Shown: positions 7,687-15,403 of the stretch, piece after piece
Position numbering within the stretch: position 1 is the first letter of the stretch
Layout of the letters: each line of letters opens with the position of its first letter
Source: Spirochaetaceae bacterium
Lineage (GTDB): Bacteria > Spirochaetota > Spirochaetia > DSM-27196 > PXBQ01
Direction of reading: 5' to 3'
Assembly (NCBI GenBank): GCA_007695285.1
Contig: REEC01000117.1
Coordinates: 62,001 to 126,000 of the forward strand
Length of the DNA stretch: 64,000 nt
The notes under the pieces: generated by a model
Seen by the model: the letters and a program-made list of their open reading frames with translations, nothing else
Told to the model about the DNA's origin: nothing
Databases searched by the model: none
Translations under genes and position numbers: made by a program

Positions 7687-8402
7687 CCGTACGCGCCGAT
7701 CTGCACGTGCATTCGTGTCTGAGTCCGTGCGGCGACCTCGAGAACTCGCCTGCCGCGATCGCACGGACCGCCGCGTCGATCGGATTAGATATCGTCGGAC
7801 TGTGCGATCACAACACTGCGTTGAACTGTCCGGCGTTTTTCGATGCGTGCCGGCGCGAAGGCATCGTCGGCGTGTACGGGCTCGAGGTCTCGACGCGCGA
7901 AGAGATTCACGTTCTCTGCCTCTTCGAGGCTCCCGACGACGCGGTCGCGTTCGGCGCCGATCTCTACCCGTTGCTCGCGGAGTTCCCGCACGACCCCGTC
8001 CGCTTCGGCGATCAAGTGATCGTCGACGTCGACGAGGTGATTCTCGGCGAACTCGAAAAGAGCCTCTTCGGAGCGATCGACCTGCCGCTGAGCGATATCG
8101 TCGCACAAACGCTCGAGCGCGGCGGTCTGGCGATTCCCGCGCACATCGATCGCACCGCGCACTCGATCGGATCGCAGATCGGGTTCCTGCCTGACGAGCC
8201 GTTCACGGCGGTCGAGGTCACGCGCGACGCGTGCGAGATCCAAACGGGTCGATTCACAAGGATCACGAACTCCGACGCGCATTTTCTCGCGGATGTCGGG
8301 GCACGGCACTTCACGTTCGAGGCCCGTTCCGCGTCGTTCGCCGCGCTCGCGCGCGCGCTCCGCGACGACCGTGTCTCGATGGAGTTCGCTCCGAGCAGCT
8401 AA
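7683..8402 (+). CDS. PHP-domain metal-dependent phosphoesterase
   Basis: This 239-aa protein has PHP metal-binding motifs DLHVHS (residues 6-11), GLCDHN, PAHID and NSDAH, so a multi-metal phosphoesterase fold is well supported. It resembles the TrpH/YciV group, known to hydrolyse nucleoside 3',5'-bisphosphates or short oligonucleotides. The substrate here is unknown. ATGA overlap with the DRTGG gene makes it the last member of the rex operon. Its 3' end overlaps ftsK (convergent) by 4 nt, leaving no room for a classical terminator. Confidence 0.8.
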   Translation: MTVRADLHVHSCLSPCGDLENSPAAIARTAASIGLDIVGLCDHNTALNCPAFFDACRREGIVGVYGLEVSTREEIHVLCLFEAPDDAVAFGADLYPLLAEFPHDPVRFGDQVIVDVDEVILGELEKSLFGAIDLPLSDIVAQTLERGGLAIPAHIDRTAHSIGSQIGFLPDEPFTAVEVTRDACEIQTGRFTRITNSDAHFLADVGARHFTFEARSASFAALARALRDDRVSMEFAPSS

Positions 8403-10747
8403 ACGTTCTCCGGGATAGAGAGAATATCGCGCGGTTTGCTCCCGTTCTGCGGCCCGACGATCCCGACGCGCTCCATCTCTTCGACGAGACGCGCCGCGCG
8501 GTTGTACCCTATCTTAAGTCTGCGCTGCAGATACGAAGCGGACGCTTTTTTCGCCGTGACGACGATCTGAATCGCCTTTTCCATCAGCGGATCTTCAAGC
8601 TCTTCCTGGATGTAGGCTTCATCGTCGTCTTCTATAAAAATCTCGTCGTCAATGTACTCGGGCTCGCCGAGCGTTTTGACGTGCTCGACGACGCGTTCGA
8701 CCTCGTCCTCTGAGAGAAACGCTCCCTGAATCCGGAACGGGAACGGGTCCCACGCCGACGTGAACAGCATATCACCGCGTCCGAGCAGCTTCTCGGCGCC
8801 CATCGTGTCGAGGATGATCCGTGAGTCGACTTTGCTCGCGACCATGAACGCGATCCTCGACGGGATGTTCGCTTTGATCAAACCCGTGATCACGTCGGTC
8901 GAGGGACGTTGCGTCGCGAGAACGAGATGGATGCCGACCGCGCGCGACATCGCCGCGAGACGCGCTAACGTCGTCTCGAGCTCCTTGCCGCTCGTCGCCA
9001 TAAGGTCGGCGAACTCGTCGACAACCACGACGATGTACGGCAGCCGCTCCATCGCGAGGTTCTTCTTCTCGATCTTTAAGTTGAAAGACGTGATGTCACG
9101 GACCGCGAGCGCGTCGAGCAGCGTGTATCGGCGCTCCATTTCGTAGATGCAGTACTGGAGCGCCTGAAACGCGCGTTTTGGATCGGTGATCACCGGCGTC
9201 AGCAAGTGCGGAATGTCGTTGTAAAACTTGAGCTCGACGATTTTCGGATCGATCAGGATCATCTTCACTTCCTGAGGCGTCCGCCGGTACAGGATCGAAC
9301 AGATGATCGAGTTCACGCAAACCGATTTTCCCGAGCCGGTCGCACCGGCAATCAACAGATGTGGCGTTTTCGTGAGATCGATTATCTGCGCGTCGCCCGG
9401 AATATCCTTGCCGAGAGCGATCGGGATGTTGATCTGGTCGCGCTGGAACGTCGGATCGCCGACGAGTTCGCCGAACGACACGATGTTCCGTCTCTTGTTC
9501 GGTATTTCGATTCCAACCGCGTGTTTTCCGGGAATCGGCGCGACGATACGAACGCTCGACGCGGCCATCCTGAGCGCGATGTTGTCCGACAAGTTCGTGA
9601 TCCGCGCGAGTTTGACTCCCGGCGCCGGCAGGATCTCGAACATCGTGATCACGGGCCCCTTCCGGATTCCGGTAACCTCGGCCTGAATCTGAAACTCCTC
9701 GAGCGTCACGCGCAGGACTTCCGCGGCGGTTCGTGTGTCGTCATCGATCACCCAGTACTGACCGTCGGGGTACTCGTCGAGCAATCCATCGATCGGCACC
9801 GTGTACTTCTTCGCGCTTTTTCGGCCCGGCCTTTTGGCCGGCGGAGGAGCTATCGGCACGTCGTCGTCGATGCGATTCGCGTCGACCATCTCGGGTATTT
9901 CGAGCTCGTCGTCTACGTCGTCGTACCCGTCGTCTTCGTCTTCGTCTTCGAGCTGATCGTCCGCTTCGAGTTCAACCGCATAGTCGTAGTCCTCCTCGTC
10001 GTGATCGATGGGGACAAGTTCGATCGGCTCATCGTCAAACGCCGCAGGGTCATCGGTCAGGCGTCCGTCGGTGAAAAACACGCGATACTCGTCGTCCGCC
10101 TCGTCCGGGTCGTCATGCTCGTCGGTGGCGTCGCGCTTCTCGGCGGGGGACTCGAGCCACGCGTAATCGAACTCGGGTCCGGATTCCGGTGCAGGAAGCG
10201 ATAGCGGTGTCGCGTCGAGGGGATCGGACTCGAGCTCGTCAAGGTCTTCCTCATTGCGATCGGATCGCGATTCATCCGCGGTGATCCCGATCACGACGTA
10301 TACGATCGCAATCAGCTCAAGCGCGAGAGCCAAAACGAGCAGGAAGGCTCCACCACGCGCAGAGAAACTCGTGATGAAGAAACTCGTGATCGGCGATTGA
10401 GCGGCGGCCGGGTCGAACAGAATCCGAAGAAGAATTCCCAGCGTGAACAGCGGGAACACCGAGAGATTCGCCGCGACAATCGCGCCCGGAAGCCGATGCG
10501 GCATAAATGTAAGAGCCGCGAGTACCCCGAGATACGTCGGGAGCAGGAAAGCCGCACCGTGGAAACTTGCAAAGAGAAACCGGCCCGGCAAAGCGAGAAG
10601 AAGGATCACCGACGAACTCGGCACCGCGCCGAACCGAATATGAGCGCCAATGGACGCTGCCGTGACGATAGCCGCCGCGACCAGGACCCCACCAAGAATG
10701 TGGTGCGACGTCTCTCGATTTACTGGGTAGTACCGATCATGCTGCAC
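8399..10747 (-). CDS. ftsK: DNA translocase FtsK/SpoIIIE
   Basis: This 782-aa septal DNA pump resolves chromosomes at division. Several N-terminal membrane segments (about residues 15-160) are followed by a strongly acidic linker rich in D and E (about 170-290). The motor comes next, with Walker A GATGSGKS near residue 466 and Walker B VVVVDEFADL near 574. The C-terminal gamma winged helix (KKASASYLQRRLKIGYNRAA) reads KOPS-like sites. The start is GTG 10747, with AGGAG 8 nt upstream. It is last in a three-gene minus-strand run behind the lytic transglycosylase. Confidence 0.93.
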   Translation of the reverse strand: MQHDRYYPVNRETSHHILGGVLVAAAIVTAASIGAHIRFGAVPSSSVILLLALPGRFLFASFHGAAFLLPTYLGVLAALTFMPHRLPGAIVAANLSVFPLFTLGILLRILFDPAAAQSPITSFFITSFSARGGAFLLVLALALELIAIVYVVIGITADESRSDRNEEDLDELESDPLDATPLSLPAPESGPEFDYAWLESPAEKRDATDEHDDPDEADDEYRVFFTDGRLTDDPAAFDDEPIELVPIDHDEEDYDYAVELEADDQLEDEDEDDGYDDVDDELEIPEMVDANRIDDDVPIAPPPAKRPGRKSAKKYTVPIDGLLDEYPDGQYWVIDDDTRTAAEVLRVTLEEFQIQAEVTGIRKGPVITMFEILPAPGVKLARITNLSDNIALRMAASSVRIVAPIPGKHAVGIEIPNKRRNIVSFGELVGDPTFQRDQINIPIALGKDIPGDAQIIDLTKTPHLLIAGATGSGKSVCVNSIICSILYRRTPQEVKMILIDPKIVELKFYNDIPHLLTPVITDPKRAFQALQYCIYEMERRYTLLDALAVRDITSFNLKIEKKNLAMERLPYIVVVVDEFADLMATSGKELETTLARLAAMSRAVGIHLVLATQRPSTDVITGLIKANIPSRIAFMVASKVDSRIILDTMGAEKLLGRGDMLFTSAWDPFPFRIQGAFLSEDEVERVVEHVKTLGEPEYIDDEIFIEDDDEAYIQEELEDPLMEKAIQIVVTAKKASASYLQRRLKIGYNRAARLVEEMERVGIVGPQNGSKPRDILSIPENV

Positions 10748-10830: not shown

Positions 10831-13104
10831 TCACCGGCCGACGACCGACGGGAAAATGCTCTCTACGGTTTGGCGAGTTTCGACACCCTCGTACAGCGAT
10901 GCGTAGTATGCGGCCGAGACGAGGATCTTGCGGATGTACCCGCGTGTCTCGGTGAAGGGGATCGACTCGTGGAAAAGCACGTCGGTAAACCCGGAACGAC
11001 TCGCCATCCACGACCGGACACGGCCCTGTCCGCCGTTATACGCGGCGAGCGCGTGCATCGGTCCCGGCAGATTCGTCATCAACCCGGATAGGTAGCGCGC
11101 GCCGATCGCCAGGTTTGTCTCGGGATCGGTCACGTCGAGACTCGTAATCCCCATTCTCGTCGCCATGTCTCGCGCGGTCGCCGGCATCAACTGCGACAAC
11201 CCGGTCGCTCCGACGCCCGACGCGATCGTCGGCGAGAACAGGCTTTCTTCGCGTATGAGCGCGTAGAAAACCGGCCGGGGTAACGACTCCGCCTCGGTGA
11301 ATCGGTCGATCAGCTCGCGGAACGCCCGCGGATACAGCAGCGTCGCGCTGCGCCGGTCGAGTTCCCCGGCAGGGCGAGCGGCCGCCGCGAGTCTAATCGA
11401 CTCGTAGTACTTGCCGCCGGCGGCGAGCAACTCGGCGATCTCGAAAACGGTTGATGCGCGCAGGGCCGAGCGATACCGGAACGCGTGCTCGTACAGTTCG
11501 TCGGGGAGTCCAAACGACAGAAATCCCCGGACAAAAACCTCGACGTCCCAGACGCCCGGCAGCTCCGATACGAGACGATCGGCCTCGATCGCCTCGTCGA
11601 CCGGATCGTGCTCGACCGGATCGTGGTCGGCCGGAGTCGGAACCCCGAGTTCGCCTGCCTCAAAATCGAGCAGCGAAACCGATCGGCCGAGCATGGCGGA
11701 GGCGGTGATCGTGTAGTACGGGCGATCGGTCTGCTGCGCCGCGTACTCGAGCAACGTTGTCCTGTCGCCCGCTGCCGCCGCGCCGGTGTGCCCCGACGCG
11801 ATTGCCTCGGAGAGAACGTACGCGACTTGAGCGCGAACCCCACTGCCCGGGAACGACTCGAGCGCGCGGTACACCGAAACGAGACCACCCCAGTCGCGAC
11901 CGGCGACGAGCCGTGCGATGAAGTCGTCGAACTCATTGTACAGCTGCGCCGGGTTCTCGATCGACGCGCCGTACTCGCGGATCGCGCGCGAGAAGACATC
12001 AGGGTTCAGGCGCGAGGCGGTCATGAGAAGGTATCGCGCTATCCGGGCGCGCTCGTCGGACGATGCGGCCGCGTGAGCGGCCTCGAGATATCGCAGCGAA
12101 TCGATGAACCGTCCGGCGACACGGTAGTGTCGGCCCGCGTGCTCGAGCGCGTAGACCGCCCGGTCGCCGGTTAGCTCGGAACTCAACCGCGAGAAAGCGT
12201 CTCCGCCCTGCCGCCAGTGGGCGGCGAACGAGTACGCGCGCGATAGATCCCGAAGAAGCGCGGGAGTCCGGAACTCCGGCCTTTCGATTACCGTCCCAAG
12301 AAGCTGCATCGCGTTGACCGCCGCGCCGGTACCGAGAGCGCGCTTGCCGTCGAGCAGCGCGCGTTCGACGTCGGAGAAACCGCGATCGAGCTCCTGCTGC
12401 GACACGAGGAACTGATGCACGCGGACGTGAACGTCGCCGACATCGTAGTCGCGAAACAGCTCAACGACGTGCCGACGCCAGAGGGGATCCCCGAGCCGAT
12501 ACGTCGCGACGGTCCGCCAAAGCTTGCGCTCGGCACTCTCGTCCCCCCACCGCGGCTCGCGGCCGTCACGCACGAGACTCGATACGACGGCTCGACCGGC
12601 GTGACGAGTCTCTTCCTCGTCGAGCGCCTCGATCACCGCCTGGTACCTTTCGAGGCGGTACAACGCTTCGATGTAAGCACCGCTCATCGTCGGGTCGTCA
12701 GGGTAGAGCCGCGTCGCGACACGCGCGCTCTCGAGCACGGAAACGAACGAACCGGATTCGAGCCCACGGCCGAGTATCGCGGCGTGCGAGAGACGACGCC
12801 ACGGTTCAGTGCCGTTTTGGGCCTCATGCCGGAGAAACGCCGCAGCGAGCCTGGGGCGCCCAAGTCGCTCGGCGTGAAGCGCGAGGTAGTACGCGGCACC
12901 GTCGCCGAGGTGCCGTACCTCGCCGATGTCATCGGACTCGATGTCGAAGCCGGCGAGAGCCGAAGCGGCGCCTGTCTCGAGTTCTCGCGTGAACTCGGCC
13001 ACAGGAACGCCCCACACCATCGTCGGTGGAATGTCGCGCGCGCACGCGGCGATAGCGGTTATCAGGAAAAGAACGGCGATTGTCTGTGGTTTAAGGTGGA
13101 TCAT
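10831..13104 (-). CDS. Soluble lytic murein transglycosylase-like lipoprotein
   Basis: This 757-aa exported protein has a lipoprotein signal (LITAIAAC) and is probably anchored in the periplasm or outer membrane. A long helical repeat region (about residues 50-580), like the superhelical U/L domains of Slt70, precedes a C-terminal SLT catalytic domain. Key motifs are ALIREESLF with the catalytic glutamate near residue 616, GATGLSQLMPATA, and LAAYNGGQGRV. It cleaves glycan strands of peptidoglycan to 1,6-anhydro products. Neighbours are the Hsp70-like membrane protein upstream (45 nt) and ftsK downstream (83 nt), consistent with a cell-envelope/division group. Confidence 0.88.
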   Translation of the reverse strand: MIHLKPQTIAVLFLITAIAACARDIPPTMVWGVPVAEFTRELETGAASALAGFDIESDDIGEVRHLGDGAAYYLALHAERLGRPRLAAAFLRHEAQNGTEPWRRLSHAAILGRGLESGSFVSVLESARVATRLYPDDPTMSGAYIEALYRLERYQAVIEALDEEETRHAGRAVVSSLVRDGREPRWGDESAERKLWRTVATYRLGDPLWRRHVVELFRDYDVGDVHVRVHQFLVSQQELDRGFSDVERALLDGKRALGTGAAVNAMQLLGTVIERPEFRTPALLRDLSRAYSFAAHWRQGGDAFSRLSSELTGDRAVYALEHAGRHYRVAGRFIDSLRYLEAAHAAASSDERARIARYLLMTASRLNPDVFSRAIREYGASIENPAQLYNEFDDFIARLVAGRDWGGLVSVYRALESFPGSGVRAQVAYVLSEAIASGHTGAAAAGDRTTLLEYAAQQTDRPYYTITASAMLGRSVSLLDFEAGELGVPTPADHDPVEHDPVDEAIEADRLVSELPGVWDVEVFVRGFLSFGLPDELYEHAFRYRSALRASTVFEIAELLAAGGKYYESIRLAAAARPAGELDRRSATLLYPRAFRELIDRFTEAESLPRPVFYALIREESLFSPTIASGVGATGLSQLMPATARDMATRMGITSLDVTDPETNLAIGARYLSGLMTNLPGPMHALAAYNGGQGRVRSWMASRSGFTDVLFHESIPFTETRGYIRKILVSAAYYASLYEGVETRQTVESIFPSVVGR

Positions 13105-13149: not shown

Positions 13150-13908
13150 CTACAGCCGGCTCGTGATTCCGACGATTGCAGCCTCCGCGTAGGCAAAAAC
13201 GAGCCCAGCCGCTTCGAGCGGCTGCACGTCCGGCCCCTGCAGCAAGCGATACACAAGGTACGACAAGAGTCCGACCGCGGCCAACGCGAGCAGAACAAAT
13301 CCGACGACAAGAAACACGCCGGCCCGGCGAGGAACCGCGGGCTCGATGGGCCCACCGATTTCGAAGCTACGCGTGACGTGTGAATCCTCGTCGATCGGAT
13401 CGGACTCGGGTTCGAGCTCTGAGTCGAGTTCCGCCAGGTCTTCCAACGGATCCGCGAGGTCATCCGCGACGTCATCTGACTGCAATGCTCCGACGTCGGA
13501 CATCTCATCGTCCATACCGGCCTCGAAATCATCGATCTCGAAGTTCGGCATGTCGAAGTCGCTCCCACCGCCGAGAGTCTCGAGGCCGACCGAAAGAGAC
13601 TGCCGTTCGCCCGATGAACTGTCCGTCGCGGTTGCGCTCAGGTTACCGTCGGCGTCGATGCCGACGACGAGCGTGATATCGGCTTCGCCCTTGGTAGCCG
13701 GGTTTATCCCGTCGATCACGAGGCTCCCGACGTACTCGCCGCCGGCGGCTTCAGAGTCCAGGCCCTGGTAGAGGTCGATATGAACCTGAGTCTGACCGTC
13801 ACGAACCGTCGTAAGGACGAGTCTCTTTTTTTTGTCGGTCTCGTCGCGGTCGAGTATCGCGAAAAACGAACCGTCGGCTAATTTTATGCCGATCCGTGAA
13901 CCGCTCAC
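13150..13908 (-). CDS. Membrane-anchored Hsp70 substrate-binding-domain protein
   Basis: This 252-aa protein starts at GTG 13908 after GGAGGG. Residues about 5-105 closely follow the beta-sandwich substrate-binding domain of DnaK (GIKLADG..., HIDLYQG, LVIDGINPATKGEADI, then GIDADGNLSATATD). There is no Hsp70 ATPase domain and no helical lid. An acidic linker (about 110-185) and one transmembrane helix (about 197-219) follow, with a short C-terminal tail. It could present unfolded or extended peptides at the membrane without ATP control. The domain match is from motif reading; the function is unknown. It heads the slt-ftsK run. A TTGACA box lies at 13975-13970 on the minus strand. Confidence 0.75.
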   Translation of the reverse strand: MSGSRIGIKLADGSFFAILDRDETDKKKRLVLTTVRDGQTQVHIDLYQGLDSEAAGGEYVGSLVIDGINPATKGEADITLVVGIDADGNLSATATDSSSGERQSLSVGLETLGGGSDFDMPNFEIDDFEAGMDDEMSDVGALQSDDVADDLADPLEDLAELDSELEPESDPIDEDSHVTRSFEIGGPIEPAVPRRAGVFLVVGFVLLALAAVGLLSYLVYRLLQGPDVQPLEAAGLVFAYAEAAIVGITSRL

Positions 13909-14059: not shown

Positions 14060-15403
14060 ATGGGCCTGAACACCTTGGCCGTCGGCATCATCATAGTGAT
14101 CGGTGTAATTGTTTTGCCGGTCTTTTACCTCGTCGTGATTCGTGGTAGCGAGAAAAAACCACGACGCCGACACGACAAGGATGCCGCGGTAAAGGCGGCG
14201 AAAAGGACTCTTGCCCAAAACCCGCGCGATCATCGAGCGCTTCTCGTGCTCGCTGACGCCTTTTTTGACGAGAAATCGTGGGACACCGCGATGAAGACGT
14301 ACGGACTCTTGATCGACCTCTCGGCTACGGTGCCGGAAATCGATCAGTTTCACGTCAACCTCCGTTACGGACTCTGTTCGGTTCAGTTGAAGAACTACGC
14401 CGACGCGTACCAGGCGCTCGTGGTCGCGCGTACGTTCCGCCAAGACTCGTTTGAGCTAAACTATAATCTCGGTTTCCTCGAGTACAAGCGGAAGAACATT
14501 GAGAAGGCTTTACCGTACCTTCGTTCGGCGAACGAGATGCAGGAAGACCACATACCGACGCGCCGATACCTCGGCCTCGCGTACGCCCGTTTGAAGCGCT
14601 GGCACGATGCACTGCCTCTGCTCCGCAGCGCGATCGAAGCCGAGCCCGACGAGAAGGAAACGCTGTTCGTGCTCGCGCAGTGCTACCAGGAACTCGGCCA
14701 GAACGACCACGCCGCGCGAATCTTTACGCACCTCAGACCCGATCCGATCGTGGGCGCGCATGCGGCGCTGTTCGCGGGTACGATCCATCTCAAGGCGAAC
14801 AAGCTCGAGGTCGCCGAGATGGATTTCCAGCTCGGCCTTCGACACGAGAATATCCGGCCTGAGATCCGCCTCGAGTTGATGTACCGCCTCGCGGCGGTGC
14901 ACACTAAAAATCAGCAGATCGGGAAGGCGCTCCAGCTTCTCTCAAAAATTCGGGAACTCAACCCAAACTACAAAGACGTCTCGGCGCAAATCTCCCGCGG
15001 ACGCGAACTGAACGACAACCGGAACCTGCAGATTTTCCTGATGGCACCGACGTCCGACTTCGTCGCGCTCTGCCGAAAGGTCAGCGAGAACTACTTCGCG
15101 CAAGCGCAGACGAAGATCACCGATGTCTCGGTTCAACGCGCCGATATTGCCGATATTCTCACGGAAGTGAACACCGCAAAGTGGGAAGATACGGTGCTGT
15201 TTCGATATATCCGCACGAGCGGCCAGGTCGGCGAGCTTATGCTCCGCGACATGCACGCGCGGATCAAGGACGTGAAAGCCGGTCGGGGGTTCTGCCTCAC
15301 CGCGGGAGGGTTCAGCGAAGGCGCAAAGGCGTTTGTCGAGGCACGTTTGATCGATTTGATCGAGAAAGAAGACCTGCTCAAGATCCTCACGAAAACGGCG
15401 TAA
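14060..15403 (+). CDS. Membrane-anchored TPR protein with degenerate Mrr-like nuclease domain
   Basis: This 447-aa protein opens with a transmembrane helix (about residues 5-28) and a basic stretch, then TPR-like helical repeats (about 45-310). The C-terminal 115 aa resemble the Mrr/restriction-endonuclease-like fold (RTSGQVGE..RDM, then TAGGFSEGAKAFVEARLIDLI..DLL). The usual catalytic Q-x-K strand reads FRYIR here, so nuclease activity is doubtful. It may be a scaffold at the cytoplasmic face of the membrane. The 3' end overlaps rsmG (convergent) by 17 nt. It is divergent from the Hsp70-like membrane gene, which suggests shared regulation. The start is chosen by the membrane helix and the adjoining promoter. 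Confidence 0.72.
   Translation: MGLNTLAVGIIIVIGVIVLPVFYLVVIRGSEKKPRRRHDKDAAVKAAKRTLAQNPRDHRALLVLADAFFDEKSWDTAMKTYGLLIDLSATVPEIDQFHVNLRYGLCSVQLKNYADAYQALVVARTFRQDSFELNYNLGFLEYKRKNIEKALPYLRSANEMQEDHIPTRRYLGLAYARLKRWHDALPLLRSAIEAEPDEKETLFVLAQCYQELGQNDHAARIFTHLRPDPIVGAHAALFAGTIHLKANKLEVAEMDFQLGLRHENIRPEIRLELMYRLAAVHTKNQQIGKALQLLSKIRELNPNYKDVSAQISRGRELNDNRNLQIFLMAPTSDFVALCRKVSENYFAQAQTKITDVSVQRADIADILTEVNTAKWEDTVLFRYIRTSGQVGELMLRDMHARIKDVKAGRGFCLTAGGFSEGAKAFVEARLIDLIEKEDLLKILTKTA

Follow-up and report, generated by a model that had tools for sequence, protein, structure and literature searches.

Peptide binding by Hsp70 proteins is usually considered together with ATP cycling. The substrate-binding domain (SBD) of DnaK (C-terminal half of PF00012; structures 1dkx and 4r5l) is an eight-stranded beta-sandwich with the cleft residues Gln433, Val436, Ile401 and Ile438, which are common to DnaK and the protein family described here. 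In contrast to DnaK, however, the family has no nucleotide-binding domain (NBD), no interdomain linker and no lid, the residues of its NBD clamp are lost, its arch residues are altered (L/M404 to A, and A429 to V or A), and it is anchored in the membrane. For an Hsp70 SBD specialised on one proline-centred motif there is a precedent in HscA, which binds LPPVK of IscU according to the available part of PMC8215388, though HscA retains both ATPase and lid, unlike the protein encoded in our window (the whole 64,000-nucleotide stretch of DNA analysed). Single-pass cell-wall proteins with a LysM domain (PF01476) are similar to most relatives of this protein, in which LysM likewise comes after a transmembrane (TM) helix and a stretch that is charged or rich in Pro and Ala; the window protein itself differs in having no LysM, and its probable cytoplasmic domain is an Hsp70 SBD. 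In the open-licence literature searched, as far as the available parts of these papers go, neither this family nor any bacterial ATPase-less Hsp70 SBD of such kind was found described.

The gene at 13150..13908 lies on the minus strand and is a complete open reading frame of 252 codons (252 aa) with a GTG start, and a ribosome-binding-like GAGGGAGGG is found a little 5' of this start, which is at the same place in relatives. The range given in the first-pass annotation is correct, and the strand, which was absent there, is minus. Residues 4-108 (13585..13899, minus strand; DnaK about 397-502) form the predicted Hsp70 substrate-binding beta-sandwich, as judged by Pfam, AF2, Foldseek, VIA and PDB sequence matches. 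They are followed by an acidic, probably disordered linker at residues 109-196 (13321..13584, minus), with 29 D/E against 3 K/R in 91 residues and a pLDDT of about 50-60, which contains a motif centred on MPNF at residues 117-126 (13531..13560, minus), the window copy of a hydrophobic-P-[DEN]-F motif that many linkers of the family share. Residues 197-223 (13240..13320, minus) are a TM helix by hydropathy (mean 2.82 over 19 residues) and by the AF2 helix (pLDDT about 93). A scan also picked up a sigma-70-like site and terminator-like hairpins within the gene; one such hairpin with a T-run, at 13206-13224 (minus) in the last codons before the downstream gene slt, may be an attenuator, or chance.

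The identity of the N-terminal part is supported by several kinds of comparison. Residues 6-109 align with positions 394-498 of the 599 in the Pfam HSP70 profile at 44.4 bits (cut-off 20.6; E 9.3e-12), and the PDB sequences that match best are SBDs from DnaK and from mitochondrial Hsp70, with E about 1e-12. In an AF2 model built with 33 family sequences, residues 1-110 form eight strands with a pLDDT of about 95; the top Foldseek match of the model is the DnaK SBD 4ezp (E 4.5e-10), and VIA superposes it on 4r5l with Z 17.1 and 1.5 A over 109 aligned residues, level with several other Hsp70 SBDs. In the viral fold library the named matches at E up to 0.001 are viral Hsp70s, and a match in PHROGs is to an Hsp70-like profile with no assigned function. 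The NBD is absent, the N-terminus corresponding to about position 394 of DnaK by the Pfam match, and so is the helical lid (SBD-alpha), as AF2 predicts no helix from residue 112 to the TM helix at 197. Among the features of an Hsp70 the protein thus has the SBD-beta sandwich and neither the NBD nor the lid, and the NBD-clamp residues are not conserved in its family. The first-pass annotation, which had proposed a DnaK-like peptide-binding sandwich in about the first 105 residues, tied through an acidic linker to a TM helix without an ATPase, is borne out by the profile search and the superposition alike.

What that annotation missed is that most relatives do not end after the TM helix. Typical relatives have the same start and run on after the helix, through a segment rich in Pro/Ala or in charges, to a C-terminal LysM domain. 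Among the 51 members read, 37 have LysM, 11 are complete without it and three run off their locus, so that by the family profile LysM is found in 37 of 48 complete members; Pfam LysM scored above its cut-off in seven of the eight relatives scanned first, and in a Treponema pallidum-like protein (L116). Since most relatives continue into LysM, the ancestral form of the protein probably spans the envelope. The complete members without LysM are the window protein, its close relative L037, G130, G203, G253, G286, G096 and those of all four Borrelia genomes; G130, G203 and G253 share the order of the window genome, and G286 and G096 belong to family f9. Because G293 (L057), also of this order, retains the domain, LysM was likely lost inside the order, and because the window lineage and Borrelia do without it, wall anchoring seems dispensable. 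The window protein therefore resembles its family in its clade-typical SBD-beta, in its acidic linker with one TM helix and in its place upstream of slt, and departs from it in having no LysM. As for topology, 34 of the 47 members counted have more positive charges at the N-terminal flank of the helix, six have more at the C-terminal flank, and in seven the two are equal; by this rule of thumb the charge bias fits a cytoplasmic SBD and an outer LysM. In the rows scanned, no single Pfam or NCBIfam model spans the protein from end to end. In PHROGs, lysis, tail and unnamed profiles match the C-terminus of one LysM relative.

The distribution of this architecture across spirochaetes was then obtained with the family alignment. 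It matched 83 of the 296 Spirochaetota genomes under a cut-off of E 1e-18, and five were dropped, four as Hsp70-length frames of 589-617 aa (G005, G066, G089 and G094) and one as a match on the TM/LysM side only (G047), leaving 78 of 296, plus Borrelia; this number is a floor, because Borrelia (four of the four genomes looked at) and G253 score below the cut-off yet hold the gene at the same place. The Borrelia SBD matches the family profile with E 1e-7 to 2e-10, and its AF2 model has an SBD pLDDT over 90 and is superposed by VIA on DnaK 4r5g with Z 12.9 and 2.0 A over 103 residues. This gene immediately precedes the BB0259-type slt, presumably at the position of BB0260; it has the SBD fold, the TM helix and the neighbours of the family, and differs in having no LysM, a diverged cleft and no match to Pfam at all. 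The T. pallidum-like genome has the SBD-TM-LysM gene just before slt and mnmG, as in the family, and its Hsp70 part is found with the family profile, Pfam finding LysM only. The T. pallidum member is probably TP0042/TPASS_0042, with the locus number taken from gene order, and this probable counterpart is annotated as LysM only in the available part of PMC4403809. An interaction map links the nearby TP0046-TP0048 region to motility, and not the TP0042-like gene, in the part of PMC2386257 at hand.

The presence of the SBD-TM gene tracks flagella only loosely. FliF is present in 77 of the 78 family genomes, and many flagellated Spirochaetota do not have the gene. A flagella-only distribution is weakly supported, as the 12 FliF-less genomes of the class with neither the family gene nor slt all belong to f13, a single family that perhaps reflects one loss, and FliF is found in 274 of 296 genomes regardless. 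The single genome where FliF was missed, G063, has only a 29-codon end of fliF, though with five flagellin matches.

The first-pass annotation had itself named an origin from a neighbouring dnaK copy that was truncated recently as one finding that would overturn it, and this origin can be ruled out. In the same genome (G000, 283 contigs) the window is part of contig C142, and the genes for the full DnaK and for another Hsp70 are on C203 and C140, respectively. A scan of named genomes, queried with the window protein alone and thus reaching close relatives only, gave a single close relative, in a Spirochaetaceae MAG (L037), where the gene has 253 codons and 84% identity. Moreover, the family is spread over the phylum, and in a tree of 52 SBD sequences (32 of the family, 10 second Hsp70s and 10 DnaKs; 117 columns) a branch with support 100/99 separates its members, including the window, T. 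pallidum-like and Borrelia rows, from all other sequences, certain rows being long and the inner order unsure. A decaying dnaK fragment or an assembly artefact, to which the missing LysM part in the window might point, has accordingly a next to negligible probability, given a gene of almost equal length in another assembly, the well supported branch and the conserved gene order. As for the second Hsp70 (L002), it has a 698-codon frame, and its SBD fits the family profile better than the SBD of DnaK does (E 6e-19 against 3e-14). Borrelia also has a second Hsp70 (L117, 9792-11252, minus; L118, 9577-11073, minus; likewise in L119 and L120), which at about 490 aa stops soon after SBD-beta, is thus apparently lidless, and has its gene near the SBD-TM gene, with a few genes in between.

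The gene had also been said to head a peptidoglycan/division operon. In fact it is located directly upstream of slt (10831..13104, minus), which encodes a lytic transglycosylase, and then of ftsK (8399..10747, minus), the third gene on the strand, with FtsK_SpoIIIE at 4.9e-65 and FtsK_gamma at 3.1e-28; so the arrangement stands. The lytic enzyme belongs to the flagellar BB0259 type, however (NF047373 BB0259_flg_lyt, 461 bits against a cut-off of 234; Pfam SLT domain 2e-25), and division is hence only part of the context of this putative operon. BB0259 is reported to be a peptidoglycan-lytic enzyme for the assembly of periplasmic flagella, and BB0260 is not mentioned in the available part of this account (PMC8517470). 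The window order, from the SBD-TM gene to slt to ftsK, is found in many relatives. An NF047373 match at E 1e-60 is present in 66 of the 78 family genomes, and in 57 of these 66 it begins at most 1.1 kb downstream on the same strand; as for the other nine, the two matches are on different contigs in seven (G142, G293, G268, G269, G252, G191 and G221), and on one contig, far apart, in G049 and G006 of family f5. Three f5 loci were read, where the neighbours are others and the gene order is not kept, and in G295 and G278 slt is present without the family gene beside it. On the other side of the window gene, a divergent gene (14060..15403, plus) encodes a TPR-repeat protein with a hydrophobic stretch at the N-terminus and a Mrr_cat-like C-terminus (Pfam 26.4 bits, cut-off 21); it is a neighbour in relatives too, often divergent beside the family gene, Borrelia included, and is a possible partner.

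Whether the cleft or the surface facing the ATPase is kept was compared on DnaK numbering. Ten cleft-contact positions were taken from the available part of PMC4408060, leaving out 402, 424 and 430, which are rarer in its contact table, and the clamp positions K414, N415 and D481 (K/R414, N415, N/D481) from that of PMC8215388; conservation was scored on 40 non-redundant members (of 49) against 5000 random position sets. The cleft set scores 0.538 compared with 0.438 for all positions, a value reached by 1.5% of random sets, with the reservations that the invariance of Gln39 had been noticed in family rows beforehand, so that the test is not wholly blind, and that the cleft positions are partly core or buried, so that the fold itself may account for their conservation. 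For the clamp set the score is 0.404, reached by 64% of random sets; the others are, for the two lid-latch positions, 0.432 and, for positions 440 and 484 on the signal path from substrate to ATPase, 0.566, reached by 12.5%. For 10 spirochaete DnaKs the values are 0.577 for the cleft and 0.661 for the clamp with an all-position mean of 0.592. In the window protein Gln39 corresponds to DnaK 433 and Val42 to DnaK 436. Gln at 433 is kept in 37 of the 40 members, the three exceptions being the Borrelia rows, and since it also appears, from the sequence read by eye, to be lost in G253, the cleft is not fixed everywhere. Position 414 is acidic (E or D) in 30 of the 40 members, with K in none of the listed letters, and the window protein has R, D and D at 414, 415 and 481. 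The family also has letters of its own, namely L403, A404, D405, Y/F409 and L426, where the spirochaete DnaKs have T, L/M and F at 403, 404 and 426 against L, A and L. This pattern supports, rather than proves, the idea that the family may have relaxed the face turned to the ATPase and kept the face holding the peptide, as if for another ligand.

Herein we propose, as a tentative reading to which we give a little under an even chance, that the protein is a non-cycling, fixed peptide-docking adaptor made from an Hsp70 SBD-beta, placed at the membrane, tied to peptidoglycan in its ancestral form, and working for the wall-opening enzyme encoded next to it. Peptide binding by the family SBD is what the fold and the conservation of the cleft point to, and the cytoplasmic side, the partner and the link to wall opening are likewise inferred. 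The SBD-beta would have shed ATPase and lid; sitting in the cytoplasm on its disordered acidic tether, it would use the old Hsp70 cleft to grip, with no ATP cycle, a short peptide in extended form from a partner in the cytoplasm or the inner membrane, and the single TM helix would keep it at the inner membrane. In the ancestral form a periplasmic LysM would grip the peptidoglycan and thereby tie the cytoplasmic peptide to a spot of the cell wall, and this tether might mark or permit local opening of the wall for periplasmic flagella or division, as the neighbouring slt suggests. A bolder form, which we regard as doubtful though worth stating, is a trans-envelope docking system, where the motorless Hsp70 clamp would read one short flagellar or division motif in the cytoplasm, the one TM helix and LysM would together fix the protein bearing it at a chosen spot of peptidoglycan, and the co-inherited slt would open the wall there.

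Other explanations have to be weighed against the fixed adaptor. The open SBD might be a membrane-bound holdase which catches hydrophobic stretches of preproteins, for example that of the slt product from the next gene, or which passes clients to DnaK; SBD-beta of DnaK does bind extended hydrophobic segments (PMC8215388, in part), and both the conserved cleft and the tight linkage to one cell-wall enzyme would agree with it. However, the conservation in the family-specific letters L403, A404 and L426 is easier to square with a single ligand than with many, a LysM anchor would be strange in such a role, and with the NBD clamp residues lost no coupling to the DnaK motor is expected, so we consider a holdase unlikely. 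Rather unlikely as well is that the SBD is a mere folded spacer or self-association module in a structural wall-membrane linker, with its cleft idle: LysM, TM helix and disordered linkers suit a structural tie, and the cleft has drifted in Borrelia and seemingly in G253, but elsewhere cleft positions are conserved above random sets where the DnaK clamp surface is not.

Alternatively, the working part may be the linker motif, which would mimic or bind a division or motility partner, or serve as a ligand of the SBD in cis or trans. The 49 linkers together hold 43 copies of the pattern hydrophobic-P-[DEN]-[FYM], and their shuffled versions 2.4 +/- 1.6 (maximum 9 in 1000 rounds); the count is to be read with the caution that the motif was picked from the same data, that the rows are related and that repeats inflate it. 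Such repeats are seen in L034 and other members of family f6, whose acidic linkers of about 155-530 residues have repeated LPDF or MPDF cores, with up to nine copies of the motif in L034. Neither FtsK nor Slt nor the TPR neighbour is enriched in the motif, which counts in favour too; sharing with FtsK is not convincing, with 3 copies in 12 FtsK linkers where 0.85 are expected and 500 shuffles reach 6. The C-termini of FtsZ in these genomes (DLEIPTVIR, DLDIPTVLR and similar) look alike, and the proline-centred ligand of HscA offers a parallel, yet mimicry of FtsZ amounts to a short resemblance only. Against a central role of the motif, a copy immediately after the SBD is found in only 14 of 51 members; moreover, the SBD has a net charge of -1 to -15 across the family and the motif is acidic too, so that self-binding is disfavoured. 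In the AF2 model the motif is not ordered in the cleft in cis, at a low confidence that neither supports nor excludes such binding. Altogether we hold this explanation to be improbable.

From an evolutionary point of view, an old and widespread family has kept the peptide-binding half of Hsp70 alone, fixed at the membrane and, for the majority of its members, apparently at the wall as well, which suggests that a part of a chaperone has been turned into a permanent adaptor between cytoplasm and cell wall. The family covers proteins of the syphilis- and Lyme-type spirochaetes that are half or wholly unannotated by Pfam, and it provides a candidate for how the spirochaete cytoplasm may signal where the wall opens for periplasmic flagella or division.
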